Below are positions 16,321 through 60,757 of a stretch of 64,000 nt of DNA, one piece after another; within the stretch, counting starts at the first letter, position 1, and each line of letters begins with the position of its first letter. Both the position numbers and the translations under genes were made by a program. Below the pieces are notes generated by a model. The model searched no databases. It was given only the letters and a program-made list of their open reading frames with translations, and was not told where the DNA came from. The DNA comes from Corallium rubrum (lineage: Eukaryota; Cnidaria; Anthozoa; Scleralcyonacea; Coralliidae). Location: contig OZ036002.1 of assembly GCA_964035015.1 (NCBI GenBank), forward strand, positions 16,360,381 to 16,424,380. Direction: 5' to 3'.

Positions 16321-16568
16321 CGACCACAGGGAGCCCAACTCTGACGCCTGTGGTGGTCCTTCCTCTTATTTTGTTTTATTATATTAAGCTTCTGACTGAA
16401 AACCAAGGCCACTGAACAGTTGTGTAAGCTGGGATAGTGGCGCTTCTCTAAACAGTTGGTAATATATGCATGATATATATGCAAATTGCATCGCGTAGTA
16501 ATTTGAAACTCGAAACAGCTGTGGGCTCCTGTGCCACGTGAGTGGTGTGTGACGCTCACTGAAAGCTA

Positions 16569-16842
16569 CAATCCGAGAATAATTCATTGGGACACTAAAG
16601 CATCAATTAGCTTCCTTCTTGCTTATTGCACTATCGTGGGATAAATAACGTTGCTTTACCCCTCCCCATCCCCCACCAATCAATGTTGATTTCCAGGTGA
16701 CACTTCTGAGTCCTAACAAACAAAAATTCGGTCGCAACCTTGGTCGGAGGGGGAAGGGGGAGGGCACATTTTAAAGATAAATCGCGTGCGCACAGAAGTT
16801 TCTTGACATACGCTGTGTCCCAATGTAATTATTCCACGATTG
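16569..16842. repeat. 0.27-kb module, copy 1 (inner TIR unit)
   Basis: Bounded by CAATCCGAGAATAATTCATT and its imperfect inverse AATTATTCCACGATTG, with GGGACAC/GTGTCCC just inside. Further copies lie at 18,759-19,031, 19,989-20,262 and 21,220-21,493, nearly identical to each other. It starts and ends the array. Confidence 0.85.
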
Positions 16843-19800
16843 TCTGAAAATATTCAATATCAATGAATTGAAATTACGCACTGTACAAATAATAAATAAC
16901 GGATAAAAAGCAAACGGTGGAACTAAAAAAATTAAACGGCAGAATTATCAACGAATAACTTCAACATTTCAATGAACGAGTTTTCGCTGTTGCGAAGACC
17001 GCAACAGTTGATCAAACGATCGTACGTCTACCGAACCGAATTGACTGTGTGATTAAAAGGGAGTGGAACAAAATGCTAAACCCACACTCATAGGTTGTTC
17101 TGGTTCACTTTTACTATCCGTGTCCACGTCCGTTGTTCTAAATAAGCACAAAACAGTAGAAACTTGTGTTCTATTTGCCCCGCGTATTAAATGTCAACCT
17201 GACAAAACAAAGGTAAAGACTGCATTTATAATTAGCTGTGCTATTATAATGGCTCATGCACAGTACTCCATGCCTTTACTGCGTCTTTCTCGCATAAACG
17301 CTTTCTAAATAACAACTGTCTCTATCAGGCTTATAATACAGATAAAGTGCTATATGCTGGTAACAATGAGGTAGCAAAATATCTAACTTAAACCGTATTT
17401 TTAACAGTACTCCATCTACGGCATAAATAATATTATAATTAGATTGTTTTTTAAATTATTACCACGATTTTGGTGGAGTACTGTTATTTATATGAGTAAA
17501 ACAGTCTGTACAACAATAATTATGCGCTTACAGGGAAGATTAAGTTAATATCTATCACTTCAACAAAAAACTGTGTAAAGAAGACTCAGTTCTTTCGAAT
17601 ATAGACCTATTTTAGTGGAGTACTGTGGTGGAGTACTGTGCCGGTCAACCGATACGAATCGGAAACAATCGGAAAATTATTTCACTGATGCTAATAGTCA
17701 TCCCATAGTCGTTAATAGTAAACCTGACCTTCATTGAGTGTGTAATCAATGAAAATGTGACCCTGGTATTAATATTTATGACTTGCGTATATTTCAGAAA
17801 GTCTGAAAATATTCAATATCAATGAATTGAAATTACGCACTGTACAAATAATAAATAACGGATAAAAAGCAAACGGTGGAACTAAAAAAATTAAACGGCA
17901 GAATTATCAACGAATAACTTCAACATTTCAATGAACGAGTTTTCGCTGTTGCGAAGACCGCAACAGTTGATCAAACGATCGTACGTCTACCGAACCGAAT
18001 TGACTGTGTGATTAAAAAGGAGTGGAACAAAATGCTAAACCCACACTCATAGGTTGTTCTGGTTGACTTTTACTATCCGTGTCCACGTCCGTTGTTCTAA
18101 ATAAGCACAAAACAGTAGAAACTTGTGTTCTATTTGCCCCGCGTATTAAATGTCAACCTGACAAAACAAAGGTAAAGACTGCATTTATAATTAGCTGTGC
18201 TATTATAATGGCTCATGCACAGTACTCCATGCCTTTACTGCGTCTTTCTCGCATAAACGCTTTCTAAATAACAACTGTCTCTATCAGGCTTATAATACAG
18301 ATAAAGTGCTATATGCTGGTAACAATGAGGTGGCAAAATATCTAACTTAAACCGTATTTTTAACAGTACTCCATCTACGGCATAAATAATATTATAATTA
18401 GATTGTTTTTTAAATTATTACCACGATTTTGGTGGAGTACTGTTATTTATATGAGTAAAACAGTCTGTACAACAATAATTATGCGCTTACAGGGAAGATT
18501 AAGTTAATATCTATCACTTCAACAAAAAAACTGTGTAAAGAAGACTCAGTTCTTTCGAATATAGACCTATTTTAGTGGAGTACTGTGGTGGAGTACTGTG
18601 CCGGTCAACCGATACGAATCGGAAACAATCGGAAAATTATTTCACTGATGCTAATAGTCATCCCATAGTCGTTAATAGTAAACCTGACCTTCATTGAGTG
18701 TGTAATCAATGAAAATGTGACCCTGGTATTAATATTTATGACTTGCGTATATTTCAGACAATCCGAGAATAATTCATTGGGACACTAAAGCATCAATTAG
18801 CTTCCTTCTTGCTTATTGCACTATCGTGGGATAAATAACGTTGCTTTACCCCTCCCCATCCCCCACCAATCAATGTTGATTTCCAGGTGACACTTCTGAG
18901 TCCTAACAAACAAAAATTTGGTCGCAACCTTGGTCGGAGGGGGAAGGGGAGGGCACATTTTAAAGATAAATCGCGTGCGCACAGAAGTTTCTTGACATAC
19001 GCTGTGTCCCAATGTAATTATTCCACGATTGTCTGAAAATATTCAATATCAATGAATTAAAATTACGCACTGTACAAATAATAAATAACGGATAAAAAGC
19101 AAACGGTGGAACTAAAAAAATTAAACGGCAGAATTATCAACGAATAACTTCAACATTTCAATGAACGAGTTTTCGCTGTTGCGAAGACCGCAACAGTTGA
19201 TCAAACGATCGTACGTCTACCGAACCGAATTGACTGTGTGATTAAAAAGGAGTGGAACAAAATGCTAAACCCACACTCATAGGTTGTTCTGGTTGACTTT
19301 TACTATCCGTGTCCACGTCCGTTGTTCTAAATAAGCACAAAACAGTAGAAACTTGTGTTCTATTTGCCCCGCGTATTAAATGTCAACCTGACAAAACAAA
19401 GGTAAAGACTGCATTTATAATTAGCTGTGCTATTATAATGGCTCATGCACAGTACTCCATGCCTTTACTGCGTCTTTCTCGCATAAACGCTTTCTAAATA
19501 ACAACTGTCTCTATCAGGCTTATAATACAGATAAAGTGCTATATGCTGGTAACAATGAGGTAGCAAAATATCTAACTTAAACCGTATTTTTAACAGTACT
19601 CCATCTACGGCATAAATAATATTATAATTAGATTGTTTTTTAAATTATTACCACGATTTTGGTGGAGTACTGTTATTTATATGAGTAAAACAGTCTGTAC
19701 AACAATAATTATGCGCTTACAGGGAAGATTAAGTTAATATCTATCACTTCAACAAAAAAACTGTGTAAAGAAGACTCAGTTCTTTCGAATATAGACCTAT

Positions 19801-21219
19801 TTTAGTGGAGTACTGTGGTGGAGTACTGTGCCGGTCAACCGATACGAATCGGAAACAATCGGAAAATTATTTCACTGATGCTAATAGTCATCCCATAGTC
19901 GTTAATAGTAAACCTGACCTTCATTGAGTGTGTAATCAATGAAAATGTGACCCTGGTATTAATATTTATGACTTGCGTATATTTCAGACAATCCGAGAAT
20001 AATTCATTGGGACACTAAAGCATCAATTAGCTTCCTTCTTGCTTATTGCACTATCGTGGGATAAATAACGTTGCTTTACCCCTCCCCATCCCCCACCAAT
20101 CAATGTTGATTTCCAGGTGACACTTCTGAGTCCTAACAAACAAAAATTCGGTCGCAACCTTGGTCGGAGGGGGAAGGGGGAGGGCACATTTTAAAGATAA
20201 ATCGCGTGCGCACAGAAGTTTCTTGACATACGCTGTGTCCCAATGTAATTATTCCACGATTGTCTGAAAATATTCAATATCAATGAATTGAAATTACGCA
20301 CTGTACAAATAATAAATAACGGATAAAAAGCAAACGGTGGAACTAAAAAAATTAAACGGCAGAATTATCAACGAATAACTTCAACATTTCAATGAACGAG
20401 TTTTCGCTGTTGCGAAGACCGCAACAGTTGATCAAACGATCGTACGTCTACCGAACCGAATTGACTGTGTGATTAAAAAGGAGTGGAACAAGATGCTAAA
20501 CCCACACTCATAGGTTGTTCTGGTTGACTTTTACTATCCGTGTCCACGTCCGTTGTTCTAAATAAGCACAAAACAGTAGAAACTTGTGTTCTATTTGCCC
20601 CGCGTATTAAATGTCAACCTGACAAAACAAAGGTAAAGACTGCATTTATAATTAGCTGTGCTATTATAATGGCTCATGCACAGTACTCCATGCCTTTACT
20701 GCGTCTTTCTCGCATAAACGCTTTCTAAATAACAACTGTCTCTATCAGGCTTATAATACAGATAAAGTGCTATATGCTGGTAACAATGAGGTAGCAAAAT
20801 ATCTAACTTAAACCGTATTTTTAACAGTACTCCATCTACGGCATAAATAATATTATAATTAGATTGTTTTTTAAATTATTACCACGATTTTGGTGGAGTA
20901 CTGTTATTTATATGAGTAAAACAGTCTGTACAACAATAATTATGCGCTTACAGGGAAGATTAAGTTAATATCTATCACTTCAACAAAAAAACTGTGTAAA
21001 GAAGACTCAGTTCTTTCGAATATAGACCTATTTTAGTGGAGTACTGTGGTGGAGTACTGTGCCGGTCAACCGATACGAATCGGAAACAATCGGAAAATTA
21101 TTTCACTGATGCTAATAGTCATCCCATAGTCGTTAATAGTAAACCTGACCTTCATTGAGTGTGTAATCAATGAAAATGTGACCCTGGTATTAATATTTAT
21201 GACTTGCGTATATTTCAGA
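16843..21219 (+). repeat. Four near-identical 0.95-kb modules
   Basis: Copies at about 16,843-17,798, 17,802-18,757, 19,032-19,987 and 20,263-21,218 differ by only a few substitutions. Copies 1 and 2 abut without the 0.27-kb module between them. Each begins CTGAAAATATTC and ends ATATTTCAG. Each holds five copies of AGTACTCC or its inverse GGAGTACT, two of them forming a head-to-head pair about 80 bp apart. A 62-codon frame (SVVLNKHKTVET...) is kept in all four, but near-identity of the copies alone explains that. Confidence 0.9.
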
Positions 21220-21799
21220 CAATCCGAGAATAATTCATTGGGACACTAAAGCATCAATTAGCTTCCTTCTTGCTTATTGCACTATCGTGGGATAAATAAC
21301 GTTGCTTTACCCCTCCCCATCCCCCACCAATCAATGTTGATTTCCAGGTGACACTTCTGAGTCCTAACAAACAAAAATTCGGTCGCAACCTTGGTCGGAG
21401 GGGGAAGGGGGAGGGCACATTTTAAAGATAAATCGCGTGCGCACAGAAGTTTCTTGACATACGCTGTGTCCCAATGTAATTATTCCACGATTGTAGACAC
21501 ACCGCAGGTGTTCTGCCAACATCAATTTGTTCGAGCTCAAATTACTAGGACACAGAGCGCCGCACTGTTTAGTCGTCTCAGCTTTCAGTGAGCGTCATGC
21601 GCCATTCACGTGGCACAGAAGCCCACAGCTGTTTCGAGTTTCAAATTACCGCGCGCTGCAATTTGCATATATATGCATATATTATCAACTGTTACGGCCT
21701 CGGGCTCAATATAATAAAACAAAAAAAAGAGGAAGGACCATCACAGGCGTCAGAGTTGGGCTCCCTGTGGATCAACTGGGCGTCACACGATACATATTA

Positions 21800-28405: not shown

Positions 28406-28459
28406 GTTGTTAGTAGATAACCCCCCCCATATACCGACGGAAGTAGTTAATATTCAGCG

Positions 28460-28524
28460 TGACTCACGCATGACTCACGCATGACTCACGCACCATGACT
28501 CACGCATGACTCACGCATGACTCA
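28460..28524. promoter_or_regulatory. Six TGACTCA (AP-1-type) sites in the left arm
   Basis: Six copies of TGACTCAC, mostly in 11-bp direct repeats (ATGACTCACGC), lie about 50 bp from the terminus and about 290 bp upstream of the 96-codon ORF. TGACTCA is the consensus for AP-1/bZIP factors. They may be a promoter/enhancer, or transposition-complex binding repeats. Confidence 0.6.
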
Positions 28525-28817
28525 CGCCTGTGACATGATTGGGCAAGATTGGAATATAGTTAGTGCGTATGAAGTTATATAAATTGAATAATATGGAGAC
28601 TTTGAATATTATATTAACCTAAATGATCAAACAGTCTTATACACGTTTTGTGGCAATAAATGTTAAGAATTTTAAAGAGTTATCGTTTACTTTGGCCTAG
28701 TTTGTAGAGGAACGAAACAGAAATGGATAGAGACACTTTATATTTTTTATCTTAAACCTGGTTTGTAGGAATTTAGCGGGTTTTTGGTTAAGTAATCTTA
28801 GTGTTATTTACGAAGAG

Positions 28818-29108
28818 ATGAATGTTGACAGTTTTGGTCGAATTATCGCTTATCTAACCCTAGTGTATAGAGTATACGAATCCTTGGATGAAGAATCAAT
28901 TCGAGAAGCCGTAAAAAGAAGAACGATCAATGATTTCATGAGAAAATATAAACGGAATAACTCTTCAAGCTGGTTGCTACGCTTTCTGTTACTAACTGTG
29001 ATATTTGCATATTTATCTCAGTGCACGTGCAGGAGACAAAAGAGAAACTCGTTAGGGGCAATTAAGAGGATTAAGCGCTTAGGCAAGTCTAGGCGAGAAA
29101 GTCATTAG
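28818..29108 (+). CDS. Small basic membrane protein of the palindromic element, left copy
   Basis: 96 codons. Residues about 51-68 (SWLLRFLLLTVIFAYL) form one membrane segment, and the last 25 residues are strongly basic (RRQKR, KRIKRLGKSRR). The same protein is encoded at 32,663-32,953 in the other arm, unchanged. It lies convergent to the ATPase gene, with about 70 bp between stops. I do not recognise the family. A virion membrane or DNA-binding role is possible but unproven. Confidence 0.55.
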   Translation: MNVDSFGRIIAYLTLVYRVYESLDEESIREAVKRRTINDFMRKYKRNNSSSWLLRFLLLTVIFAYLSQCTCRRQKRNSLGAIKRIKRLGKSRRESH

Positions 29109-29176
29109 CGTCATCACAACAATCAGTTTAAAATATTTATTTCGGTTTTCGTTCAAACATATACATATAAAAAGTT

Positions 29177-30533
29177 TTAGTAAGGTCTGCTTCTTAGATT
29201 ATATTTAGGTGTTTTTATTTTAAAAGTAGCATGATAATCTTTCTTGTCTTCTGGTGATAATTGGGACACATCTTCTTTTGTCATGGGTAAATATTTTGAT
29301 CTAGTCATCATTAGATGGTGTTCATACTCTTCTCTATCATCCGGAGTCATCTTTGCCAAGTCTTTCTTGTCGGGTCGCCCAAACTTTCCCAGTTATGAAA
29401 GAAATTATGTTTAAGCGTCGGTTGTTCAACGGTAGGAGGCGGTGTTACAAAATAGGTTTTAGGTGTAGCAGGGAAACCCCACGGAAGATCGTCAGTTTCT
29501 TGCTTTATCTCCGGTGTCAAATTTGGTGTATTTTGCTGAGTTTGAAGACTAGTCAGAGGTTGAGACTGATTTTGCAGTTGGTTTTGAAACGTCAGAAAAC
29601 GTCCTAGCTGATTGGAGTAAAGTATGCTCTTTTCTTCAGGTGTTAACTGTGGCGCTTGTACAATATCTTGCATTTTTTGTTCTGTATTGTACATGGCATT
29701 AACGATCGGAGGTAATTGATAGGATTGCTTTTGTATGAAACTACCCAGCTGTTGCTGCAGGCTGGAGCTATTTTCTCCAGGTAGAACATTGGTCTTGAGG
29801 CGGTGATCGTCGTCCGTAGTCGGCTTTAGATCAAGCATTAAATAACCATGAGGGCGACTTGTGGCTTCCTCATAACTCTTCATAAATTCATGGACATGAC
29901 CTGGGTTCACCTGCCGTGCCAAGACAGAAATTTGTTGCTTATCCCTCGGAGACTTGAATAGTACGATATAGTGTGCGTTGAGGCTGATGTTTCTTGTTTC
30001 TTTGCCTTGGTGGAAAATGTTCTGAACAATATAGATGATAGATAAATTCCGGTGATGACTACCTTTAGTAAATAGACTAGCAACTCGTTTATCTCCCCTG
30101 ATTGAGCCATAAGATCATCAAGGACGATCAGGTTACGTTGAGAGACTTCAAGAAAATTATCAGAGTCAATGTTGGAAGGTATACCCTCATAGAATTCGAT
30201 GCCTGGTATTGTTTTGATCATTTCTAAATACATGGGCTGCCACTGTCCATAGCACCAAATGATACGTTCGGGAGGAGGATTAATCGTAGTTTTGGCGTTT
30301 TCAAGAAGTGTTTTCACCCATACTGTTTTACCACTTTGGGTGCACCCTGCTACAATACACGTGAACGGGTGCTGCATGACTGTAGATACGTTGGCTAGAG
30401 GAATAGGTTGCGAGGCGTCGCTCTCGGGGTGGACATTCTTAATATGACGAAGAAGGTGCTCTTTTCTCGATAGACTTTTTCCGCATTTGTTGCAAACGTG
30501 TGACATGTTTACACGATGAGTACTAAACACCAA
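29177..30533 (-). pseudogene. Zinc-finger/packaging-type ATPase, left-arm copy, two frameshifts
   Basis: Same gene as 31,269-32,594. From 30,533 the frame keeps the C2H2 finger, Walker A and Walker B. A G-run near 30,100 is one base shorter than in the right arm and shifts the frame after DDLMAQSG. A second single-base loss near 29,375 shifts it again before the C-terminal 60 codons. Between these, this copy retains a 33-bp stretch (11 codons, near 30,005-30,040) that the right arm lacks. Typed pseudogene because the frame is broken twice. Confidence 0.8.
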
Positions 30534-30599
30534 ATGAGTTTATTATTTGGAAGCGCAATGCTTAAATTATTTAACCAAATTTCTGCAGAGGATCTAAAC

Positions 30600-31206
30600 A
30601 CCCAAACACCCCGGGGGTAACCCCCAAACACCCCCGGGGGTAACCCCAAACACCCTTGGGGTACCCCAATCACCCCATGGGTAACCCCCAATCACCCCCG
30701 GGGGTAACCCCCAATCACCCCCGGGGGTAACCCCAAACACCCCTGGGGTACCCCAATCACCCCTGGGGTAACCCCAAACACCCCGGGGGTAACCCACAAA
30801 CACCCCTGGGGGTTATTGGAGTGCCCCAGGGGTGTTTGGGGTTACCCCCGGGGGTGTTTGGGGGTTACCCCCGGGGTGTTTGGGGGTTACCCCAGGGGTG
30901 ATTGGGGTACCCCAGGGGTGTTTGGGGGTTACCCATGGGGTGATTGGGGTACCCCAGGGGTGATTGGGGTACCCCAGGGGTGTTTGGGGTTACCCCCGGG
31001 GGTGATTGGGGTACCCAGGGGTGTTTGGGGTTACCCCCGGGGGTGAGTGGGGTACCCAGGGGTGTTTGGGGTTACCCCCGGGGGTGATTGGGGGTTACCC
31101 CCGGGGGTGATTGGGGGTTACCCATGGGGTGATTGGGGTACCCCAAGGGTGTTTGGGGTTACCCCCGGGGGTGTTTGGGGGTTACCCCCGGGGTGTTTGG
31201 GTGTTT
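30600..31206. repeat. GGGGTTACCCCCGGGG minisatellite, inverted around the palindrome centre
   Basis: Units of about 24-26 bp (GGGGTTACCCCCGGGGGTGTTT and variants with GGTACCCC or ATGG) run in one orientation left of about 30,815 and in the other right of it. The left block is about 210 bp and the right about 390 bp, so the right has several extra units. Every unit is itself GC-palindromic. This is the spacer and shared upstream region of the two divergent ATPase genes. Confidence 0.9.
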
Positions 31207-31268
31207 AGATCCTCTGCAGAAATTTGGTTAAATAATTTAAGCATTGCGCTTCCAAATAATAAACTCAT

Positions 31269-32594
31269 TTGGTGTTTAGTACTCATCGTGTAAACATGTC
31301 ACACGTTTGCAACAAATGCGGAAAAAGTCTATCGAGAAAAGAGCACCTTCTTCGTCATATTAAGAATGTCCACCCCGAGAGCGACGCCTCGCAACCTATT
31401 CCTCTAGCCAACGTATCTACAGTCATGCAGCACCCGTTCACGTGTATTGTAGCAGGGTGCACCCAAAGTGGTAAAACAGTATGGGTGAAAACACTTCTTG
31501 AAAACGCCAAAACTACGATTAATCCTCCTCCCGAACGTATCATTTGGTGCTATGGACAGTGGCAGCCCATGTATTTAGAAATGATCAAAACAATACCAGG
31601 CATCGAATTCTATGAGGGTATACCTTCCAACATTGACTCTGATAATTTTCTTGAAGTCTCTCAACGTAACCTGATCGTCCTTGATGATCTTATGGCTCAA
31701 TCAGGGGGAGATAAACGAGTTGCTAGTCTATTTACTAAAGGTAGTCATCACCGGAATTTATCTATCATCTATATAAGAAACATCAGCCTCAACGCACACT
31801 ATATCGTACTATTCAAGTCTCCGAGGGATAAGGAACAAATTTCTGTCTTGGCACGGCAGGTGAACCCAGGTCATGTCCATGAATTTATGAAGAGTTATGA
31901 GGAAGCCACAAGTCGCCCTCATGGTTATTTAATGCTTGATCTAAAGCCGACTACGGACGACGATCACCGCCTCAAGACCAATGTTCTACCTGGAGAAAAT
32001 AGCTCCAGCCTGCAGCAACAGCTGGGTAGTTTCATACAAAAGCAATCCTATCAATTACCTCCGATCGTTAATGCCATGTACAATACAGAACAAAAAATGC
32101 AAGATATTGTACAAGCGCCACAGTTAACACCTGAAGAAAAGAGCATACTTTACTCCAATCAGCTAGGACGTTTTCTGACGTTTCAAAACCAACTGCAAAA
32201 TCAGTCTCAACCTCTGACTAGTCTTCAAACTCAGCAAAATACACCAAATTTGACACCGGAGATAAAGCAAGAAACTGACGATCTTCCGTGGGGTTTCCCT
32301 GCTACACCTAAAACCTATTTTGTAACACCGCCTCCTACCGTTGAACAACCGACGCTTAAACATAATTTCTTTCATAACTGGGAAAGTTTGGGCGACCCGA
32401 CAGAGAAAGACTTGGCAAAGATGACTCCGGATGATAGAGAAGAGTATGAACACCATCTAATGATGACTAGATCAAAATATTTACCCATGACAAAAGAAGA
32501 TGTGTCCCAATTATCACCAGAAGACAAGAAAGATTATCATGCTACTTTTAAAATAAAAACACCTAAATATAATCTAAGAAGCAGACCTTACTAA
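31269..32594 (+). CDS. Zinc-finger/packaging-type (A32/FtsK-HerA-like) ATPase, right-arm copy
   Basis: 441 codons. A C2H2 finger (C14, C17, H30, H35) is followed by Walker A GCTQSGKT (63-70) and Walker B NLIVLDD (134-140), then a Gln/Pro-rich C-terminal half. The P-loop plus DD Walker B and the HPFxCIVAGxT context resemble DNA-packaging ATPases of Polinton-like and related viruses, which load DNA into capsids. A start at Met10 (31,296) is also possible. The frame is open, but it lacks an 11-codon block present in the left arm about 40 residues after Walker B, where the family has a conserved Gln-Asn sensor motif, so it is probably inactive. AATAAA follows the stop by about 35 bp. Confidence 0.75.
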   Translation: MVFSTHRVNMSHVCNKCGKSLSRKEHLLRHIKNVHPESDASQPIPLANVSTVMQHPFTCIVAGCTQSGKTVWVKTLLENAKTTINPPPERIIWCYGQWQPMYLEMIKTIPGIEFYEGIPSNIDSDNFLEVSQRNLIVLDDLMAQSGGDKRVASLFTKGSHHRNLSIIYIRNISLNAHYIVLFKSPRDKEQISVLARQVNPGHVHEFMKSYEEATSRPHGYLMLDLKPTTDDDHRLKTNVLPGENSSSLQQQLGSFIQKQSYQLPPIVNAMYNTEQKMQDIVQAPQLTPEEKSILYSNQLGRFLTFQNQLQNQSQPLTSLQTQQNTPNLTPEIKQETDDLPWGFPATPKTYFVTPPPTVEQPTLKHNFFHNWESLGDPTEKDLAKMTPDDREEYEHHLMMTRSKYLPMTKEDVSQLSPEDKKDYHATFKIKTPKYNLRSRPY

Positions 32595-32662
32595 AACTTT
32601 TTATATGTATATGTTTGAACGAAAACCGAAATAAATATTTTAAACTGATTGTTGTGATGACG

Positions 32663-32953
32663 CTAATGACTTTCTCGCCTAGACTTGCCTAAGCGCTTAA
32701 TCCTCTTAATTGCCCCTAACGAGTTTCTCTTTTGTCTCCTGCACGTGCACTGAGATAAATATGCAAATATCACAGTTAGTAACAGAAAGCGTAGCAACCA
32801 GCTTGAAGAGTTATTCCGTTTATATTTTCTCATGAAATCATTGATCGTTCTTCTTTTTACGGCTTCTCGAATTGATTCTTCATCCAAGGATTCGTATACT
32901 CTATACACTAGGGTTAGATAAGCGATAATTCGACCAAAACTGTCAACATTCAT
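32663..32953 (-). CDS. Small basic membrane protein of the palindromic element, right copy
   Basis: Encodes the same 96 residues as 28,818-29,108. Its stop lies 68 bp from that of the ATPase gene on the other strand. Full conservation between arms, while the ATPase copies differ, hints at recent gene conversion or at a short time since insertion. Confidence 0.55.
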   Translation of the reverse strand: MNVDSFGRIIAYLTLVYRVYESLDEESIREAVKRRTINDFMRKYKRNNSSSWLLRFLLLTVIFAYLSQCTCRRQKRNSLGAIKRIKRLGKSRRESH

Positions 32954-33246
32954 CTCTTCGTAAATAACACTAAGATTACTTAACCAAAAACCCGCTAAAT
33001 TCCTACAAACCAGGTTTAAGATAAAAAATATAAAGTGTCTCTATCCATTTCTGTTTCGTTCCTCTACAAACTAGGCCAAAGTAAACGATAACTCTTTAAA
33101 ATTCTTAACATTTATTGCCACAAAACGTGTATAAGACTGTTTGATCATTTAGGTTAATATAATATTCAAAGTCTCCATATTATTCAATTTATATAACTTC
33201 ATACGCACTAACTATATTCCAATCTTGCCCAATCATGTCACAGGCG

Positions 33247-33311
33247 TGAGTCATGCGTGAGTCATGCGTGAGTCATGGTGCGTGAGTCATGCGTGAGTCA
33301 TGCGTGAGTCA
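33247..33311. promoter_or_regulatory. Six TGAGTCA (AP-1-type) sites in the right arm
   Basis: Mirror image of the left cluster, with the same spacing. Confidence 0.6.
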
Positions 33312-33419
33312 CGCTGAATATTAACTACTTCCGTCGGTATATGGGGGGGGTTATCTACTGTTGTTTATTTTTGCATCTATTCATCCATCCAACATCAACA
33401 TCCATCCAATCATTTATCC

Positions 33420-34232: not shown

Positions 34233-34460
34233 TTAATAATACGTTTCCCAAATTTGAACGTGTGCGACTCGTACTCTCCGAATACGTCTTGCTAATGCGA
34301 CCAAGGGCCATCTTCCTCTGGGGGTGTCAACTAACAGTACGATGACGACATCACCCACTTGAATGCTATCTTGATCTCGATGCCACTTCTTCCTCTTGTT
34401 CAGTCCAGGGAGCCATTCCCGCGTCCATCGATGCCAGAAGTTTCGGACAAGCTCTTGCAC
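34233..34460 (-). pseudogene. BEL/Pao integrase C-terminal (DUF5641-like) domain
   Basis: WHRWTREWLPGL, then VGDVVIVLLVDTPRGRWPL, is the DUF5641 signature that ends BEL/Pao polyproteins. It is in another frame from the integrase core next to it, so at least one frameshift lies near 34,440. Confidence 0.8.
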
Positions 34461-35415
34461 TCGGCGCCACCGTTTGGGGTGAAAGCGACACTGTCTACAC
34501 TCTCAGGCGCAAATCGTCCTCCCACTTGCCCATGCAGGAAGTGGTTGGGTGTTAGAGGTACTATGTCTTCCGGACTCACTGATTGGTAGGTCAGTGGTCG
34601 AGAGTTGATCAGTCCCTCAGCCCTCACGACTGCACGTAAAAGCTCTTCATCTGTAATGTCAGCACAACCCAAAATGGCATATATAGCTTTCTTTGCCGCC
34701 TTTGTCATCACTTCATGGACACCACTGAAATGTGGGGCGAACGGTGGATGAAAGTGCCACTTGACTCCATAACTGGCTGTAGTGTCCTGGATCCTTTCTT
34801 TATCCAAGGCTTCCAATTCCTTCAATTCGTTGTTCCCCCCAACAAAGTTTGTTCCATTGTTGGAAAGGACGTCTTTTGGAATACCACGTCGCGATGCCAG
34901 TCGAAAGAATGCATTAAGGAAGGAGTCGGTATCAAGGCTGTACGCTACTTCAAGATGCACCGCTCTGGTAGCCAGTCAGGTAAACAAGCACAGGTACCTT
35001 TTCTGACGTATCTTTTCTCTACCTTGCTTGGTGATGAAAGGTCCACCAAAGTCGATAGAGGTCTGGTTGAAGGCACACAACGACTTCTGTGTCCGCAGTT
35101 CTGGCAATGGTGCCATTACCTGCTTCGCTGGCGTGGCTTTATTTCGTCTACATTGCATGCATTCTCTTTCCCACTCTCTTCTCTTTCTCTTTCTCTCTTT
35201 CTCTTTCTCTCTTTCTCTTTCTCTTTCCCACTCGCTTCTCTGGCCGAGATTACCCAGTATCGGGCTGATAGCTGGGAAATTACCTGATTGGTTCCTCCAT
35301 GCAGTTTCTGTTCGTGAGCATCCTTGATTTTATCAGCTTGGTAACCCAATGACTCCGGCGATTTGATAACGAGCTTCCCATGGCAGGCTGTCTGCATAGC
35401 AAAGTCTTCCATCAC
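34400..35415 (-). pseudogene. BEL/Pao integrase core
   Basis: From right to left: SQLSARYWVISAREA-type head (about 35,270), CRRNKATPAKQVMAPLPE (35,155-35,100) with the zinc-binding cysteine, FGGPF containing Asp of the catalytic triad at about 35,060, VLSNNGTNFVGGN (34,860; SDNGTNF in the family, so the second catalytic Asp is replaced by Asn) and HFSGVHEVM (34,720) with the Glu. A CT-rich tract (35,160-35,240) has expanded inside it. Frameshifts separate the blocks. Confidence 0.8.
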
Positions 35416-36700
35416 GCCTCAGTACACCATCTTTGTCTGCTTTCGGTCTCAATGGTAGTAACTTTGATCCAAGGGGTAGTTCCTTCCATACTCTCAAAGC
35501 TCGGATCTCCTCTTTGAATGCTTCTTGTTGAGCGAGTATGATGAAACGCCCTCCTGGTGATTTCTTCTGGTTTGATTGGTCCTTTTCTACGAAGGTTTGG
35601 CGGCAACCGACAATTATCCACGAAACGATTAACTCTTGAAGAGACTCTGGTAGGCTTAGTCCAACTTGAGTATCTTGTTGGGTCCAGGCGGTTCTCACTG
35701 GTTGATGTAACAAAGGCCTGATCTGCGACTTGCTTCTGTGCAAGATACTGCTTACGGATCTCTATGTCTGGTTCACACTTAGCTTGAATCTTTGTCTTGG
35801 GCCATTCTGTCTGACCTTGCTCCAGAAATGAAGGGCCATTCCACCATTTGTCTTCTTTGGCGAGCTCGGTAAACTTCATTACTCTCGTCAATTTGTCAGC
35901 TGGATTCTGTTTTGTTGGTACGTGTCTCCACTGTGCTGGATTTGTCAAGTTTTGGATTCCCCCCACACGATTTGCCACGAATGGTTTGAATGTCCGACGT
36001 CGTCCTCGGATCCAGTACAGGACATCCATGCCACCCGACCAGAATGCCCATTCAGACTTTATCATATTTAGCACATGTCCAATGACCTCAGCAAGTCAGA
36101 GTCCAATGATGGCTGCCATAAGTTCCAAACGAGGTATACTCACGGCTTGTAGGGGTGCAACTCGTGACTTTGAGGCTAACAGACGGCAAGTGACAGATCC
36201 ATCCTCATAAACATGTATTATAGCTTAGTTTAATAGCTTAATCATCATCAAATATACAAATACGAGCATAATCTGATGAAAGGTGGTCCAACAGGGCAAA
36301 GCCCCAATTGAAATGGAATGTATGTGTGACTGAATGTATGTATGTGACTGCGCCATATGCCTCTTGAGAGGCATCCACGAAGGTGTGCAGGGTCGTGCTT
36401 CTAACTTTGGTATTGACTCTGAGACATCGAGGTATGCGAAGGTTTGGTAGTTCCAAGAGTTGGTTGAACCACTGATGAGCTTTCTTCGACAGGTTCTCGT
36501 CCACCGGGTCATCCCAGTCAGTTCCACTCGCCCACATCTCTTGCAGGAGAACTTTGGCACAGACAACATATGGTGACAAGAATCCAAGAGGATCAGACAA
36601 GGTAGCTATTTTCCTCAGAAAGCTGCGTTGATTTCTTGACATTTCTCGGGTGGGTTGGCTTGAAATCTGAACTCGTCCTCTTTGGGGGACCACAACATTC
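35416..36700 (-). pseudogene. BEL/Pao RNase H region and linker to integrase
   Basis: TLSDPLGFLSPYVV and LHTFVDASQEAYGAV (36,600-36,340) mark the start of RNase H. WRHVPTKQNPADKLTR (about 35,900) marks its end. WWNGPSFL and LPPNLRRKGPIKPEE (35,840-35,560) form the linker typical of Pao polyproteins. Three or more frame changes. Confidence 0.8.
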
Positions 36701-37324
36701 CCAGGGTCTTGACAGCAGGTAGCTCACCCTTGTCAAGATCCACCTCTGTTGCACAATGTGATGATGGCATATGCTGTGAAACCTCAGGATCATTTGACAG
36801 CCACTTTCTCGCATGCATCCCTGCAGATGCCCAAAGCTGCGACAGCTGACCATACAACTCGATTCCAGTTTTCGCATCAGGGACTGAAACCATGTTGTCG
36901 TTCATCTACGTACTCTCCAGAACGGTCCCGGCTGCTAATGGGAGCTCTGACTGGTACTTCTGGGCATGCTGTCGGCAACAAACTGTGCTTGAAACGGAGA
37001 CGAGTTTACACCAAAGACAACATGGTTAAACTCATATACACCAGGTTCCTTCTGTGTGTCCAAGTCTCGCCACAGGAAACGATGATATGGTTGGTCTTCT
37101 GGCTTCAACCTGATTTGAAGATACATCTCTTTAATGTCACACATCAAGGCCACAGGGTCTCGTCGGAATCTCAGTTGTACGGCAAACACTTCATTTTGCA
37201 GCTTTGGCCCTTGAAGCACAGCATCAAGAGACACACCTTTGTATTTTGCAGAAGCGTCATACACAATTCGAGTCTTGGTTGTCGACTTGTCAGGTCTTAA
37301 TACAGGAAAGTGGGCAAGTACCAA
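36593..37324 (-). pseudogene. BEL/Pao reverse transcriptase
   Basis: TTKTRIVYDASAKYKGVSLDAVLQGP (quoted here in parts: RIVYDASA, LDAVLQGP) and MCDIKEMYLQI carry the first catalytic Asp, followed by RFLWRD and FGVNSSPFQAQ. The YVDD box near 36,900-36,912 has a small insertion that destroys the frame and the catalytic pair. Inactive. Confidence 0.85.
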
Positions 37325-37495
37325 ACTTGATCAGGCTTCTTCTCTTCTGGCAACACTTTGCAAACATATTCTTTCTTCTGGTAATCGTTAACTACATCAC
37401 TATAGGCTTAGCCAACTTCAGGACATTTCTGCAATCGTTTCTCTGTGTTCTGCAGTCGACGTAGTGCCATACTGTAGTTGTCTTGTAGTACTCCT

Positions 37496-38165
37496 TTACT
37501 GGCTTTCCATGGCATACCAACACTGTAATGGCCATCTAAAGGTGAGAGACTCTGTTGCTATCTCTGTTGCTAGCTCCTCCTCTGGGTTGGCAGTCTGTGT
37601 TTCCTTGGGCTCGTCAATGTCCCAGAAACGTCGAATCAGGGTGTTCAAATCGTCTGGATCCTTTGCAAGAAAGGTGAAGGTTGTCTGGTTTCTAACTGCC
37701 TCTACTTTGGGGTTACCAATGCAGGTCCATCCTAATGGGGTCAATCTGGCTATGGGCTCTCCTGGTCGTCCTCCGACATCTTCCAGTGAATACAGTAAGT
37801 CCGACTGATCTACTCCAATCAGTAGATCGACGATAGCCCTGGATCCTACGGATGGAAACTCGATCTCCTTCAAATGCTGCCATTTAGACTTGTACACCTT
37901 CCAGTCTACTACTTCCGTGCTACCAGTCACTCGTTCTGTTGTATAGGCTGAGGCTTCCTTGAACGTCTTTCCATCTAAACTGCTAATCGACTATGGAACT
38001 GCGTAACTTTTCCCGGTTGTCATTCACTACATTCAAAGTCAGTTCACAAGGCTCCCCTTCAAGGCCAAGCTCTTCAGCAACATCACTGTTCAAATAAGAT
38101 CTACTGCTAGCTTCATCTAAGAGAGCATTTACTTTGACTCTCTTGGTCCCATTGATTGGGTACAC
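37496..38165 (-). pseudogene. BEL/Pao aspartic protease and DUF1758-like region
   Basis: VNALLDEASSRSYLN (38,120) is the Pao-type protease active-site region. IVDLLIGVDQSDLLYS and GRPGEPIARLTPLGWTCIG (37,850-37,700) follow as in intact elements. A stop/frameshift near 37,985 separates the two. Confidence 0.8.
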
Positions 38166-38780
38166 AGGAACAGTCGCAAGGCTACAAATTCTAAGGGAAC
38201 TGCAGGTTTCTTTGCCATGGTGGTTGTGAGGGTAGTATTGGTGCTGGTGGTAGACTGATTCACTTCATTCACATGGGCTCCACTGCCTGAGGGATTCTGT
38301 TGGTTTATCTCCTCTCTTTCATTTCCTTGAACAGTTACTCTGCTTTGTTGCGCTACCACTTTATCTCCATGGAGCATTCTGTGATGTGAAGACTTGCAAC
38401 CATTGATACCACACGCCCTCCTTCTGCTACATGACTCCCCTCGATATCCTTCACCAAGACATCTGAAGCATAGCTTGTGCTCTTTGGCGATATCCCATTT
38501 GTGGTTTACTGTCATATTCTTGTAGCTATCACAAGCCCATATTCCATGAAATTGGCCACATGCTTTGCATTTCCTGGGCTGCCTCTTCTTGGGTTCATTG
38601 TTATCTTGAGTGATAAATGTTCGTCCTGAGGGGCTCCTTTCTTTCTTGGTACTTTCCTTGAGGACACCCATTATTGTTTCAGAAGCTGTAGTCAAGAACT
38701 CAGACTCTTTGTCAATGAACTCCCCCAGCGTTGCAACATTCTCATTCTGGCACTTGTCACGTGGCAAAGAAATTCCTGTC
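38129..38780 (-). pseudogene. BEL/Pao gag C-terminal part with zinc knuckles
   Basis: 212-codon frame: ATLGEFIDKESEFLTTASE, then CKACGQFHGIWAC and CFRCLGEGYRGESC and CGINGCKSSHHRMLH, the paired zinc-binding motifs of BEL gag that bind genomic RNA. It is cut at the right by the CR1-type insertion. The other half of gag is at 41,771-42,763. Confidence 0.85.
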
Positions 38781-38789
38781 AGAAATCAA

Positions 38790-55515: not shown

Positions 55516-56139
55516 TCAAAAACGCTTCGTAAGGGCTTGGTTGTTCCAAGTTTTAGTTAGTTTCCGTTTATGTTCAACTACTTTTGTTTTATGTTGGTAC
55601 ACATGTTTTCCCACAGTTACACCACCAGATAACAGTCCGAGACATGGTATATACGGCGTGATCATGGCTACAACTTTACCAACGTCACTCTTTAACAGTT
55701 TATCTTTTTGTAATTCGTTGTCTAGCGCCTCAGAGCTTTCTACGGCGTCCAGACCACCGAGAACATTAGAGAATCTACTGATTAAAATATCAGTTAGGAA
55801 TTCGTTAGCTCTTTCCATTCTTCTAGCCTCATATTCAGCGTATAGCTTATCCACAACCTTTACCGTCGCTTTTTTGATGTAGCTGACTGACTGAGTTACC
55901 TCACCATCCTCTGATAATTTTATCAGCTCACTTCTCTTCTTATTGGTGTCATCGGTTGGTGGAGGTGTTGAGCTGGTTTCCTCAGTCTTTTTTAGATCAT
56001 TGACGAGCTCATCGACGAGGTTGGGGATTTCAGCAGGTATTTCCGTTTCTAGTTCCCCAACAGATGCCTCGACTGGTTCCACAGCGGATACCCTGATTTT
56101 TCCCCCAACTTTTACCGTTTTAGTTTTCTTTTCGGCCAT
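55516..56139 (-). CDS. Polinton-like element, hypothetical protein (207 aa)
   Basis: Lys/Glu-rich start, Pro/Thr-rich linker at about 60-70, coiled-coil-like region (KKATVKVVDKLYAEYEARRMERANEF) and a hydrophobic patch near 160-178 (VAMITPYIPCLGLLSGGVTVG). It follows the ATPase by 4 bp and is the last gene before the left terminus. Family not recognised; a structural or internal virion role is possible. Confidence 0.6.
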   Translation of the reverse strand: MAEKKTKTVKVGGKIRVSAVEPVEASVGELETEIPAEIPNLVDELVNDLKKTEETSSTPPPTDDTNKKRSELIKLSEDGEVTQSVSYIKKATVKVVDKLYAEYEARRMERANEFLTDILISRFSNVLGGLDAVESSEALDNELQKDKLLKSDVGKVVAMITPYIPCLGLLSGGVTVGKHVYQHKTKVVEHKRKLTKTWNNQALTKRF

Positions 56140-56143
56140 CTTA

Positions 56144-56752
56144 CTACAGACCAGATTTTGGGATGACCACCTTATACGCGTACGGATGTCTTAACATAAT
56201 CTCAAGTCCGGCGTATTTGTTCTCTTTTAACTTTTTAGTTACCTCCATAACCTCATCACGATCTAAGCCACCCAGGTAGTCATCAGTAATAACCTTCATG
56301 TCGGTTTTGTTGGGGTTGTAGAACGTTACTAACTTACTGATATTCTCCCTATAAGGTTTTGTGATAGCCGTTAGCTGTTGTGTGATTACAATAGTTGAGA
56401 GATTGTAGTGTCGAGCGCTGAAGGCTAATTTAACCAACTCACTTGTTCTGTTCTTTACGGGTTGTCCACTGGCACAGTCGTCGAGGACTATCAATGTTCT
56501 AGACCCCCTGAATATTTCGACAATGTGTTTTAGTATAGTTTCAACGTCGTCCTGACTACACTCCACAACGATGAAGTCCGGGTCGGGGGTATACTTCCAG
56601 GTACCATATGTTTTGTTCCAGCTGAACGTTGGACAGAGCAGAACGATGTAGTCGAAGACTCCGAAGTAATCGTCTTCTAACATCTTTAGAAGATACCAGG
56701 TTTTCCCACAAGCCGTCATACCAACGATCAACATATTGAACGGATGATCCAT
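56144..56752 (-). CDS. Polinton-like DNA-packaging ATPase
   Basis: 202 codons. Walker A GMTACGKT (11-18), Walker B TLIVLDDCA (86-94), sensor-like TQQ (124-126). This is the compact A32/FtsK-HerA packaging ATPase of Polintons and relatives, which drives DNA into capsids. The frame is intact. It abuts the capsid gene: the stop of that gene and the ATG here are adjacent, so the genes are tightly packed. Confidence 0.9.
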   Translation of the reverse strand: MDHPFNMLIVGMTACGKTWYLLKMLEDDYFGVFDYIVLLCPTFSWNKTYGTWKYTPDPDFIVVECSQDDVETILKHIVEIFRGSRTLIVLDDCASGQPVKNRTSELVKLAFSARHYNLSTIVITQQLTAITKPYRENISKLVTFYNPNKTDMKVITDDYLGGLDRDEVMEVTKKLKENKYAGLEIMLRHPYAYKVVIPKSGL

Positions 56753-57996
56753 TTAATACTGAATTGATTTTAGGTTTTTGTTTACCATGTTCACCAAACC
56801 ATCACTCAACACAAAGATCCGACAGACTGTGTCAGCCACAGTCACCTTTTTGGTAATCTCAATCAGGACCCCAGACTGTGTATTAACAATTCTTTTCTCA
56901 GTCCCAACACTATCGCGATCCTCAATGCTTCTCAAGTCAATCGCCAGAGCGAAGGCGTTCTTGTAGAACTTTTGGATTGTCAAAAACTGATCCGTGTTTT
57001 CCTTTCCACCAAACAGTCTTTTAGCCTCATCATAGAGCCGACTTTTTGGGATCCCCTGACTGAAGACAGCGTTGGGTACACCCTCAATTGTTAGCTTAAC
57101 ACTTTCAATGTTTGGATAGACGTATTCCTCACTATCAGTCCGGGTTTTATTTGTTAACATCATCACGATTCCTTTCATAGACTTTCGTGGGAGGTTAATG
57201 TGTTCGTTGATCAGGGTTGATCCAGCCGTCCATTCAGTTGACTTCATTAATGTTACGTGTTTGTAGGATAACGATCGACCAACCGTGTACAGCGAGATTA
57301 TCTCACTGGCGATGTCGGTGTTATCAATCGTCTCATACTCCAGTTCGAGGTTTTCCAGTGTGTACCCATCAACAGATTCACTTGACTGGGCCACCATAAC
57401 ATCACTCGCCTTTGGTAAGCTAATGACGTAGCGTAAGTTGTTGTACATTTCAAAGGGAGCGTAAAGCCCATGAGCCTCAAGGATTTTATCCAGTTTCACC
57501 CTCAGCTTTGTCCCATGGATTGTGAGCATCAAAGCGTCAGCCACCTTTTCAGTGTCCCCAGAGGAAGCCCCACTGTCGTCCTTAGACATCAGCTTTCTCA
57601 GGTTCTCTGGACCGATTCCATATACCCAACCATCTGATCCCTTACACTCTTCGGTAGCCAGAGATCTCTGTACACACCGAAGACACTTTCACCCGTATTG
57701 TCGTAAACAGTTTCACCGGCTAGCTTGACGACCAACCTTTCAACCAGAAGCTTGGAGAGATTGTTTAGGAACCACGACTTGGTATTAGCGTTCTTGAAGT
57801 CGAACAATAGATGAAAGCTACCCGGGACCAAACAGCTATCGGGTTTTAGCTTTGGTATGTCGATGTAAAGGTCCTCACCAGGGTTGACTTTGTTGGGATT
57901 CATGGTGATCGTATGTCTTGTTCTACTTCCCCTAATTTCCGACATCCTCGCCCGTCTGAATCCAGGTAACAGCTCTGTCTGACTTCTGTTGGTCAT
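56753..57996 (-). pseudogene. Polinton-like major-capsid-type protein, split by a 2-base frameshift
   Basis: The upstream piece (57,996-57,598) has NPNKVNPGEDLYIDIPKL, LVPGSFHLLFDF and LVERLVVKLAGETVYDN, which read like the N-terminal jelly-roll of a capsid protein. The downstream piece (57,589-56,753, 278 codons) continues with MYNNLRYVISLP, IVMMLTNKTRTD and LTIQKFYKNAFALAI. The open frames change at about 57,605, where an extra TA-type dinucleotide shifts the frame; the intended reading continues across it. About 410 residues in total, shorter than the roughly 600 of well-known Polinton capsids. Assigned by context and fold-like features, not by a certain family match. Confidence 0.7.
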
Positions 57997-58013
57997 ATAC
58001 TACATAACAGACT

Positions 58014-59246
58014 TTATTTCCTACTTTTTCTGTTTTTCCAGTAGTCATACAATAACCACGCCATAGCTATGGCTAAAACCCACAGATTGTTGGCTAACCA
58101 TACTATTCCTTTTGCTCCCCAAGTCAGAACCTGTGTTACTAGGTTGAATAGTGGTGCTAACAGAGGTCCCAAACTCTTACCCAGGTTAGCGAGTGCCTTA
58201 GCGAAACCACCAACAGCTTTTGCTCCCCCCGAAACAACATTTCTGGCCGCCACAACTATTGTCGTTACAATCCCAGCTATGGTGATGGCTATAGCAGACA
58301 GACCAACCATATTTTTCCTAGCCCACCTCTTGAAACGTTCCAACCTACTTAGGTCATTGCTTTCCACCTCATTGGTTAAGACAGACACGGCTTCTGTGTG
58401 TTCAGGCCTCTCACCAATCCTAATTCTTATGCTGTCTGCCTTTAGTTCCGCTGTATCGCTGAAGCTATTGTAGTACTGTTTCCTAACAAGGTCGGTTTCG
58501 TTTGATGCTTTCACTCTGTAGTCTTCGGCCAGTATTTCAAGAAATCCGATTTTTTCCGTATCCGTACCTTGTGGGTTGTGTATTCCGGAGAGTTCTCTTA
58601 CTTCCTGTTCGGGTATAAATATTCCTTCCGCCTGTTCTTGTAGGTCTTTCTCTCTTTCTTCAACCCAACCGTCGATCACTGAACTTGCTCGTGAGACTAT
58701 ATTAACCACCACTTCTTCAGAAAGCATTGGGTTGCCGATAATTTCCTCAACCGCTCCCTCAGCCGTTTCATAATGTACAATTCTGGCTTTTTCTAACAGT
58801 TCTTTGAAAAGTATGACGGATTCGGCTATGTTTTTTGATTTGTTTTCACTGTACCTAATTCCAACACCATCAGATACGAGAATTTTCACACCATTAAAAA
58901 ATGCTCCGTTGACGCGACCCTTCCTATTAAAGGAAAACTCAGTCTGTTCTATTATGTTCTTGGACGATATACCGTCTTTCTTATTTACTATAGCATTTAA
59001 CTCTGTGTGAAAGAGCTGCTTTTTATCACGTGTGATGGACCCTTTCATTGACCCAACATCACTACCAATGTCGGGCACCCCATCCTCAATACGGGTTATG
59101 TGTTCCGAAGGTTTGGATACGGGATTGTCCAGTTTGGGGTCATCATTGTTGTCACCTACGGAACCCGTCTCGTCGATACCATTTTCTTCTCTCTCTCTGC
59201 CTTCACCACGCTCATCCATTTCGATGTTGACTTTTCCCTCAGCCAT
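58014..59246 (-). CDS. Polinton-like element, large protein with C-terminal membrane segments (410 aa)
   Basis: The first 75 residues are acidic and disordered. The middle (80-290) is helical and mixed. The C-terminus has hydrophobic stretches at about 315-333 (VGLSAIAITIAGIVTTIVV), 336-372 (Gly/Ala-rich, amphipathic: GGAKAVGGFAKALANLGKS) and 385-402 (WLANNLWVLAIAMAWLLY), ending KNRKSRK. It resembles membrane-active minor virion proteins in layout. It lies between the capsid gene and the minor virion-type gene and starts 7 bp after the latter ends. Family not recognised. Confidence 0.6.
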   Translation of the reverse strand: MAEGKVNIEMDERGEGREREENGIDETGSVGDNNDDPKLDNPVSKPSEHITRIEDGVPDIGSDVGSMKGSITRDKKQLFHTELNAIVNKKDGISSKNIIEQTEFSFNRKGRVNGAFFNGVKILVSDGVGIRYSENKSKNIAESVILFKELLEKARIVHYETAEGAVEEIIGNPMLSEEVVVNIVSRASSVIDGWVEEREKDLQEQAEGIFIPEQEVRELSGIHNPQGTDTEKIGFLEILAEDYRVKASNETDLVRKQYYNSFSDTAELKADSIRIRIGERPEHTEAVSVLTNEVESNDLSRLERFKRWARKNMVGLSAIAITIAGIVTTIVVAARNVVSGGAKAVGGFAKALANLGKSLGPLLAPLFNLVTQVLTWGAKGIVWLANNLWVLAIAMAWLLYDYWKNRKSRK

Positions 59247-59252
59247 TATACA

Positions 59253-59923
59253 CTAACCTATGTACAACTCAAGCAGAACAGCTCCGATCCCAACCGGCCG
59301 ACCTACTGAATGATCATTGTTTCCACGGACCCTAAAGGTCATCTTACCATAAACACCCTTTCGAATCTCAGCTTTCGACTCAATGTCTGTGTAGTGCTGT
59401 ACACTCCCTTTCAGACTCTGTTCAGAGGTTATTGGAAGAGCACCAATCAGATTACTCCTCCTCCCATTGTCCAGACAGCGTCACACAAGATCTCGACATA
59501 CCTCAACCCTCTATTGATGTCCACTTGGTTTGGACTGTTCGTCCACCCACTACCACCGTTTATCACATCATCCTCATCAAACCCCAAAAGAAGACCCATC
59601 TTCCCAAGTTTCAACTTTTCCGACGTTCTTATCCTAGATGTTCCGTTGTAAACATTCTTTCCGAATTCAACCGTCCCACCAGACCCCCTGGCTAGAGTTT
59701 TGACGAACGTTTCCAACGCGTCAAAGTCCAGATAACCTTCGGTAGCGGGCGACTTCATATCACCAAACCACACCGAGTCGTTCAGACCTGACACCACGTT
59801 GTTGTAGTTCCAGTATACCGTCGCTTTCTTCAGCATTATTTGTGGTTTCGGATTTATCACCATGATAGGTTGTTCGAAGTAGACAGTCTTCTCACCATTT
59901 TCAATGAACAATGTTAACCTCAT
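59253..59923 (-). pseudogene. Polinton-like minor virion-type protein, frameshifted
   Basis: The frame from 59,923 (LTLFIENGEKTVYFEQPIMV...) stops at 59,447, but a second frame carries on at once (LIGALPITSEQSLKG ... GIGAVLLELYIG) to a TAG at 59,253, so one frameshift near 59,450 divides a protein of about 220 residues. Beta-rich. The position beside capsid-type genes suggests a minor capsid or fibre-base protein; inference only. Confidence 0.6.
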
Positions 59924-59937
59924 TACCTGAGTATATA

Positions 59938-60757
59938 TTAACCCAGATTTTGTACGTCACTTTCAGGTATCCATGAGTTGTGCTTGTTGTCATAACCCAA
60001 CCACTTGACCAACACCATCTTCCTTCCCGCGACTTTCTTCCTTTTCAGTACCTTCTCCACCCTATAAACGTCATCCTTCTTATCCACCGGCGACAGCTCT
60101 TCCTCATAGAACTTTCCGATAATCGGTTCACCCTCAGCGTCCTCTATCTCGTAAACGTTTGGATCACCACGGATGACCTTCACTATCCTAAAGATTTCCT
60201 CAGTGAAGTTAGCTTCATAACTCTTTGTAAATATACTCTTGTACTTTGACACCTTCACAGTGTCTCCAATCCTGAACCTGGGTAAGGGGTGATCACCAAA
60301 ATGGTGACCAAACAACGTATTCCAAACCTGATTTTCGTTTGACTTATTAACGTCCTTGGGCTTCAGCATAACGACACTATGTTTTGTGTTGTTATAACCC
60401 TCAACGAGGTCGTCCAGGACATCAATCCACCTATAAGTCCCCTTGGTGTAAAAATACTTCCACATAGCAGTTTTTAGTGTTCTGTTAAACCGTTCGACAA
60501 TCGCTGCTTTCTTGTCTGAGTGCATACTGAAGTACTCAACACCGTGTTCCTTCAGTAGGTCTTTCACACCGACGTTGTAAAACTCCTTTCCGTCGTCGAA
60601 CTGAGCCAGGTCAGGATAACTACCAAGGCGACCTCTGAACTGTTCCAACAGCTCAGCCACAGCCCCAGTCATGTTACTCGTGTCCTTCCTGTAAACGGGA
60701 ACGGCGAAGGCATACCTACTCAGAATCTCAACAGTCGTTAGGATCCAGTAATACCCT
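59938..60757 (-). pseudogene. Polinton-like integrase, C-terminal part with chromodomain
   Basis: WILTTVEILSRYAFAVPV, then FDDGKEF with the second catalytic Asp (about residue 64 of the open frame), KAAIVERFNRTLK with the catalytic Glu (97), an SH3-like part (RFRIGDTVKVSK), and a C-terminal chromodomain (VEKVLKRKKVAGRKMVLVKW, LGYDNKHNSWIPESD). In Polintons the retrovirus-type integrase cuts and joins ends giving 6-bp duplications; the chromodomain can guide it to chromatin. The N-terminal part continues at 61,197 after a retrotransposon insertion. Apart from that insertion the two parts are open. Confidence 0.9.

Follow-up and report, generated by a model that had tools for sequence, protein, structure and literature searches.

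We analysed a 64,000-nucleotide stretch of the Corallium rubrum genome (C18:16360381-16424380, hereafter the window), together with relatives found by searching the genome (474,352,983 bases in 312 contigs). Wnt genes (26 matches) mark this genome as that of an animal. The subject is a palindromic element at positions 28,412-33,359 of the window, which is inverted repeat over its whole length and has termini AGTAGATAAC...GTTATCTACT of the AG...CT type. The initial annotation had proposed a near-perfect palindrome with Polinton-type ends and GTTGTT on both sides, and both proposals proved right. Its coordinates were exact, and in the arm alignment that it had called for, the left arm and the reverse-complemented right arm were 98.0% identical over 2,405 alignment columns (BLAST). 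Outside the central minisatellite the arms differ at four places: two 1-bp indels, one substitution and one 33-bp gap. The same ends and the 6-bp duplication are shared with a 14.7-kb Polinton of this genome, described below. The features of the element are as follows (window coordinates, with strand where one applies; aa, amino acids; ORF, open reading frame).

28406..28411: left target-site duplication GTTGTT, 6 bp, from sequence reading and arm comparison
28412..28431, + strand: left terminus AGTAGATAACCCCCCCC..., common to the family
28460..28527, + strand: TGACTCACGC repeated six times within the left arm, by direct reading, with mirror copies at 33244-33311
28818..29108, + strand: 96-aa ORF, apparently the C-terminal part of a Bcl-2-like gene, with upstream residues recognisable in another frame
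29177..30506, - strand: left-arm ATPase gene, its frame broken by 1-bp indels (ORF list and arm comparison)
30600..30812: left half of the central GC-rich minisatellite, with self-complementary units; limits approximate
30813..30823: unique tip where the inverted halves of the minisatellite join, common to 12 of 18 palindromes
30824..31206: right minisatellite half, longer than the left half; limits approximate
31296..32594, + strand: right-arm ATPase of 432 aa with a C2H2 finger and an A32/FtsK-type domain, missing 11 residues in frame (profile and alignment)
32663..32953, - strand: right-arm 96-aa ORF, same sequence as the left one (ORF list)
33340..33359, - strand: right terminus ...GTTATCTACT, from arm comparison and family ends
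33360..33365: right target-site duplication GTTGTT, 6 bp, from sequence reading and arm comparison

Each arm carries the 96-aa ORF, pointing inward, and the ATPase gene, read outward from the centre. These two genes per arm had been noted initially and are indeed present, but both ATPase copies are damaged, and the ORF of 96 aa appears to be only part of a longer Bcl-2-like gene. The left ATPase frame is broken, and the right-arm ATPase lacks 11 residues that are present in 29 of 29 aligned relatives (29 among the 120 matches listed), 7 of the 11 missing columns being at least 90% invariant in relatives; therefore, neither arm has the usual ATPase frame. That frame, of 443-445 aa, was found in 18 of the 30 arms fetched. 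The window ATPase has 422 relatives at E 0.001 or better. Its ORF scored 16.8 bits against Pox_A32, under the 22.8-bit cut-off, and a relative of it, the ATPase of element L040, scored 24.9 bits, over the cut-off. Among solved-structure sequences the ATPase matched chiefly C2H2 fingers (among the 60 matches listed out of 162) and P0121 had no significant match; a PHROGs search returned nothing useful. PolB and an rve integrase were absent between the ends of the element in ORF and profile scans, as was a capsid gene, there being no capsid-type ORF beside the ATPase and the 96-aa ORF. The TGACTCACGC repeats contain TGACTCA, which we take to be an AP-1-type site, and the six copies near each end may be an enhancer of the Bcl-2-like gene.

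Long-read libraries are known to yield inverted chimaeras as an artefact, and an assembly or hairpin-read artefact might be suspected here for that reason. However, the flanks differ on the two sides and the inversion ends at the element ends. Unequal minisatellite length and differing lesions in the arms had been raised initially against an artefact, and both were seen: the two minisatellite halves differ in length, and different lesions occur in the two arms. It is the presence of 6-bp duplications at many unrelated sites, as set out below, that leaves an artefact with next to no likelihood.

A genome search with one arm returned at least 63 matches, many as inward-facing pairs (40 of 2,232 candidates scored). 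The 6-bp duplication is exact in 11 of the 12 elements with both arms in hand and agrees at 5 of 6 bases in the remaining one. Ten further same-ended pairs with other contents gave eight exact duplications (one of which sits in a TA repeat and is little informative), one that agrees at 5 of 6 bases, and one that is exact but shifted by 3 bp; the chance expectation for an exact 6-bp match is 1 in 4,096. A search for copies by their ends had also been suggested initially. The terminal 10-mer by itself was uninformative for this (601+634 places versus 521+535 for the reversed control), and its matches at window positions 4026 and 4554 were rejected as they belong to an unrelated short inverted-repeat element. 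In contrast, a degenerate terminal motif occurred at 606+609 places genome-wide versus 14+23 for the reversed control. The initial interpretation depended on other copies with the same ends in the genome, and many palindromic ones were found.

The form of the same-ended elements was sampled from the first 100 of the 1,215 terminal-motif places, all on contig C1. We took, in list order, 20 of about 37 pairs in +/- orientation lying 4.4-11.7 kb apart; the known palindrome C1:15.20 was omitted, as were the pairs of 13.9, 14.7 and 20 kb, the last of which had been read before. The stretches compared lay 1.5-2.5 kb inside the ends in 18 pairs and 1-2 kb in two. With simple repeats masked, inverted repeats of 98-100% identity were present 1-2.5 kb inside the ends in 17 of the 20 pairs, the longest masked inverted match per pair being 143-982 bp. 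The unmasked comparison also gave 17 of 20, and the same-strand control gave matches in 0 of 20. When nine further centres were read, four were symmetric through the centre and five were asymmetric within the stretch fetched. Long inversion is the rule in this 20-pair sample and full palindromes are a large part of the same-ended elements, but forms with long terminal inverted repeats (ITRs) also exist, such as L040 and L041, where the ITRs measure roughly 1.7 kb and the element 5.7 kb. The number of minisatellite units is unequal on the two sides of the centre.

One same-ended element, C1:6874550-6889266, is 14.7 kb long, has an ITR of 261 bp and is flanked by the duplication GATAGT. Its sequence, which was read in two pieces, encodes PolB in two frames (PF03175 over cut-off in the first), an A32-type ATPase, an integrase with rve and chromodomain both over the Pfam cut-offs, plus a GRF zinc finger, and a 119-aa terminal ORF of the Bcl-2-like type. 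Its further ORFs we take to be adenain-like protease, capsid, penton-like and pX-like proteins, and its subterminal DNA matches the L040 ITR at about 92%. Because the same-ended elements include this complete-looking Polinton with PolB, ATPase and chromodomain integrase, we regard the palindromes as derivatives of Polintons (Mavericks), probably non-autonomous ones. The genome thus has an rve and chromodomain integrase that could serve them in trans.

Inverted forms of other Polinton parts share these ends. An 11.7-kb element carries PolB in both arms, and a 7.6-kb element contains, in inverted copies, a portion of PolB that is 98.8% identical to the corresponding portion in the 14.7-kb element. 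The 20-kb end pair (L043 and L044, C1:16133500-16153499) is a palindrome whose ATPase belongs to a second lineage (44% identity with that of L040) and whose arms are 99% alike. A roughly 10-kb transposon-like insert, which has short inverted ends and contains an ORF of 638 aa, apparently splits the palindrome, whose centre also has units of the self-complementary type. Thus, with ATPase palindromes of two lineages and inversions of PolB, the long inverted forms arose from more than one Polinton part. The occurrence of same-ended palindromes with the ATPase only and of others with PolB in both arms would also suit a gene-partitioned, segmented Polinton, in which the ATPase, PolB and other genes reside on separate but interdependent palindromes. 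Yet the 14.7-kb element keeps the genes together within the same ends; a purely segmented Polinton was dropped once this element had been read, and we judge partitioning of any kind very improbable.

Another same-ended element, C1:5378681-5389784 (11.1 kb; L059, L085 and L060), has rve integrase, zinc-finger ATPase and RING ORFs and the duplication GACAAC, and shows no inversion at 1.5-2.5 kb inside its ends. Acidic ORFs at L086:8039-8803 and L040:2841-3512 weakly match Adeno_E1A (17.6 of 27.7 bits) and DCA16 (18.6 of 27 bits), respectively.

The centre of the palindromes bears on how the palindromic state arose and persisted. The minisatellite units hold self-complementary cores, for example ACCCCCGGGGGT, and where the two halves join, palindromes of the main ATPase class have a short tip that lies outside the repeat. 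This tip is present once in each of 12 of the 18 ATPase palindromes. These 12 span subfamilies that differ in their termini and include C39, where the array next to the tip is truncated. Within an element, it was found at 0 of 17 other loci scanned, the one unrelated match lying outside the L040 element. The single shared tip site therefore suggests common descent from one palindrome. Counting substitutions only, in the eight tip-bearing elements with both arms fetched, we found that the arms within one element differ by 0-7 per about 1,550 bases and the four main lineages by 17-54; closer sister copies are 0-12 apart. Arms that had evolved separately since the common palindrome would be expected to differ no less than arms from different lineages. 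Since arms within an element are closer than lineages despite the shared tip, they seem to have been rewritten from one another, with few exceptions. Thus, the palindromic form appears to be inherited as such, with its arms kept alike.

The ATPase appears to have been under selection during this descent. We compared 12 representatives of 21 open frames (19 from the 30 arms, plus L040 and L041), and the ratio of non-synonymous to synonymous change (pN/pS) was 0.00-0.41 over the 15 pairs of six tip-bearing copies, the change being mostly synonymous. The L022 and L011 ATPases, for instance, differ by 17 synonymous and 0 non-synonymous changes. This pattern points to an ATPase that is functional while in palindromic form. 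Both results speak against the idea that a replication error in a linear Polinton produced each palindrome separately, as a dead end like the defective by-products of viral replication. The origin of palindromes and long inversions from different parts (two ATPase lineages and PolB) would fit such an idea, as would the damage to both ATPase copies in the window element. However, it does not account for one unique tip in 12 of 18 palindromes, nor for tip-sharing copies that have diverged with mostly synonymous ATPase change, and we hold it to be improbable.

The chief rival for the homogeneity of the arms is gene conversion between them. Here the palindromes would be Polinton derivatives with over-extended terminal repeats, and chromosomal conversion between the arms, or with other copies, would keep the arms alike with no self-complementary intermediate. 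The near-identity of the arms is compatible with this, and long-ITR forms with unique centres do occur. Additionally, the available part of one report discusses inverted-repeat growth by conversion for Galileo and mentions expansion of inverted repeats in Polintons (PMC3573991). Conversion alone, however, leaves unexplained why palindromes derive from several parts of the Polinton genome and why symmetry runs through the centre in many copies. We found nothing that argues directly against conversion, and we consider it unlikely, though deserving of serious attention.

We favour, as the probable explanation taken as a whole, a large and young family of Polinton derivatives that are inverted repeat over their whole length and replicate via a self-complementary strand, drawing on polymerase and integrase provided in trans. 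According to the available portion of PMC6431247, Polintons use a protein-primed PolB for replication and a retroviral-like integrase for insertion. The PolB and integrase of the same-ended Polinton would replicate and insert the palindrome in trans. During strand-displacement replication, the displaced single strand of a palindrome would be self-complementary and could snap back into a full-length hairpin. One arm would then serve as template for the other in each cycle, so that both arms are made from one, and this templating would both keep the arms alike and transmit the palindromic form. Fold-back at the self-complementary minisatellite units beside the ATPase gene probably gave rise to the first palindromes; the minisatellite sits where such a fold would have to form, and unequal unit numbers on either side of the centre would fit slippage. 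The ATPase would be retained under selection, perhaps for packaging.

Several observations weigh against this explanation. Many same-ended elements are long-ITR forms and not full palindromes, because five of the nine centres read were asymmetric, and the tip is shared by only 12 of the 18 palindromes. The arms of C1:56.63 differ by 7 substitutions, nearly as far as they are from sisters (8-12), and youth accounts for part of the arm identity, because sister copies may differ by 0. The pN/pS values are based on open frames only and reach 1.06 in the closest pairs, which have very few changes; 12 of the 30 arms are without the 443-445-aa frame, and both ATPase copies of the window element are damaged. 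Additionally, two protein scans of IMG/VR and one scan of GTDB contigs confirmed no relative. The sole IMG/VR match to the terminal 16-mer, L001, looks like chance after reading 428 bases around the motif.

Going beyond this, we tentatively raise the possibility, which we would not put at even odds, that the palindromes constitute virus satellites of a new class, being derived from Polintons and having a heritable self-complementary genome, in which one arm is rewritten from the other as a built-in arm repair. Such satellites would make up a large part of the same-ended elements and may live on full-length Polintons or interfere with them.

Palindromic adenovirus mini-genomes and self-complementary adeno-associated virus are likewise linear DNAs of viral origin that bear terminal repeats and take the form of inverted dimers. 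Unlike the palindromes, which are integrated and apparently inherited copies, those are by-products or constructs. Vertebrate Mavericks have (AGT)2//(ACT)2 ends and 6-bp duplications (PMC8097293, as far as available). The window element is like them in its AGT-repeat-like ends, with ITRs beginning AG(T), its 6-bp duplication and its A32/FtsK-type packaging ATPase, and it shares its ends with the 14.7-kb Polinton of the same genome. It is unlike them in having no PolB, integrase or capsid gene, in being inverted repeat throughout, and in the apparent inheritance of its palindromic form. Foldback and Galileo elements have long inverted repeats with internal repetition, which can account for most of a copy, and Galileo is classed in the P superfamily (both from the available part of PMC3573991). 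Inverted repeats likewise make up most of the window element and are long and internally repetitive, but the family differs from Galileo in its Polinton-type ends, 6-bp duplication and genes, which are present in each arm, and in the tip common to diverged copies. In yeast, origin-dependent inverted-repeat amplification (ODIRA) proceeds through an inverted dimer whose replication is extrachromosomal and precedes its integration (PMC4689423, partial text), and the same course is proposed here for the palindromes. ODIRA, however, is a model of one-off chromosomal rearrangement in which integration is by homologous recombination, whereas the palindromes are a transposon family with ends and target duplications.

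The titles and abstract openings listed from the open-licence PMC literature gave no report of palindromic Polintons. PMC11071308 has no mention of "palindrom" or "inverted", and PMC2836005, in the part available, gives no end or duplication data for Polintons. Polintons and long-ITR foldback elements are known kinds; a Polinton derivative with an apparently inherited palindromic state, and a gene seemingly selected in that state, is new as far as the open-licence literature searched.

Long, nearly perfect palindromes are usually considered unstable, and here they persist in numbers in an animal genome. The replication and movement of Polintons have so far been largely inferred, and an inherited palindrome, arm rewriting and 6-bp duplications together would bear on the replication intermediate. 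A palindromic family of this kind predicts detectable hairpin or inverted-dimer DNA. The palindromes also provide naturally occurring defective genomes for a virus group in which no particles have been observed to date, according to the available portion of PMC8097293.

Several other features were seen nearby and elsewhere in the genome. A second, different Polinton-like stretch lies at window positions 55516-60843, with an A32-type ATPase and an ORF that is rve-like (below cut-off) and has a chromodomain; beyond it, past the window end, is a deoxynucleoside kinase ORF (L042:394-930). On contig C129 (L117), COX1 is almost wholly readable in the standard code and occurs in several further partial copies, which is odd for an animal and perhaps marks a contaminant. 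Tandem units of about 1,230 bp, 98-100% alike and flanked by 95- and 54-bp inverted repeats, occupy window positions 16324-21770. Lastly, retroelement-type ORFs, presumably of BEL/Pao look, are found at 34400-38785.

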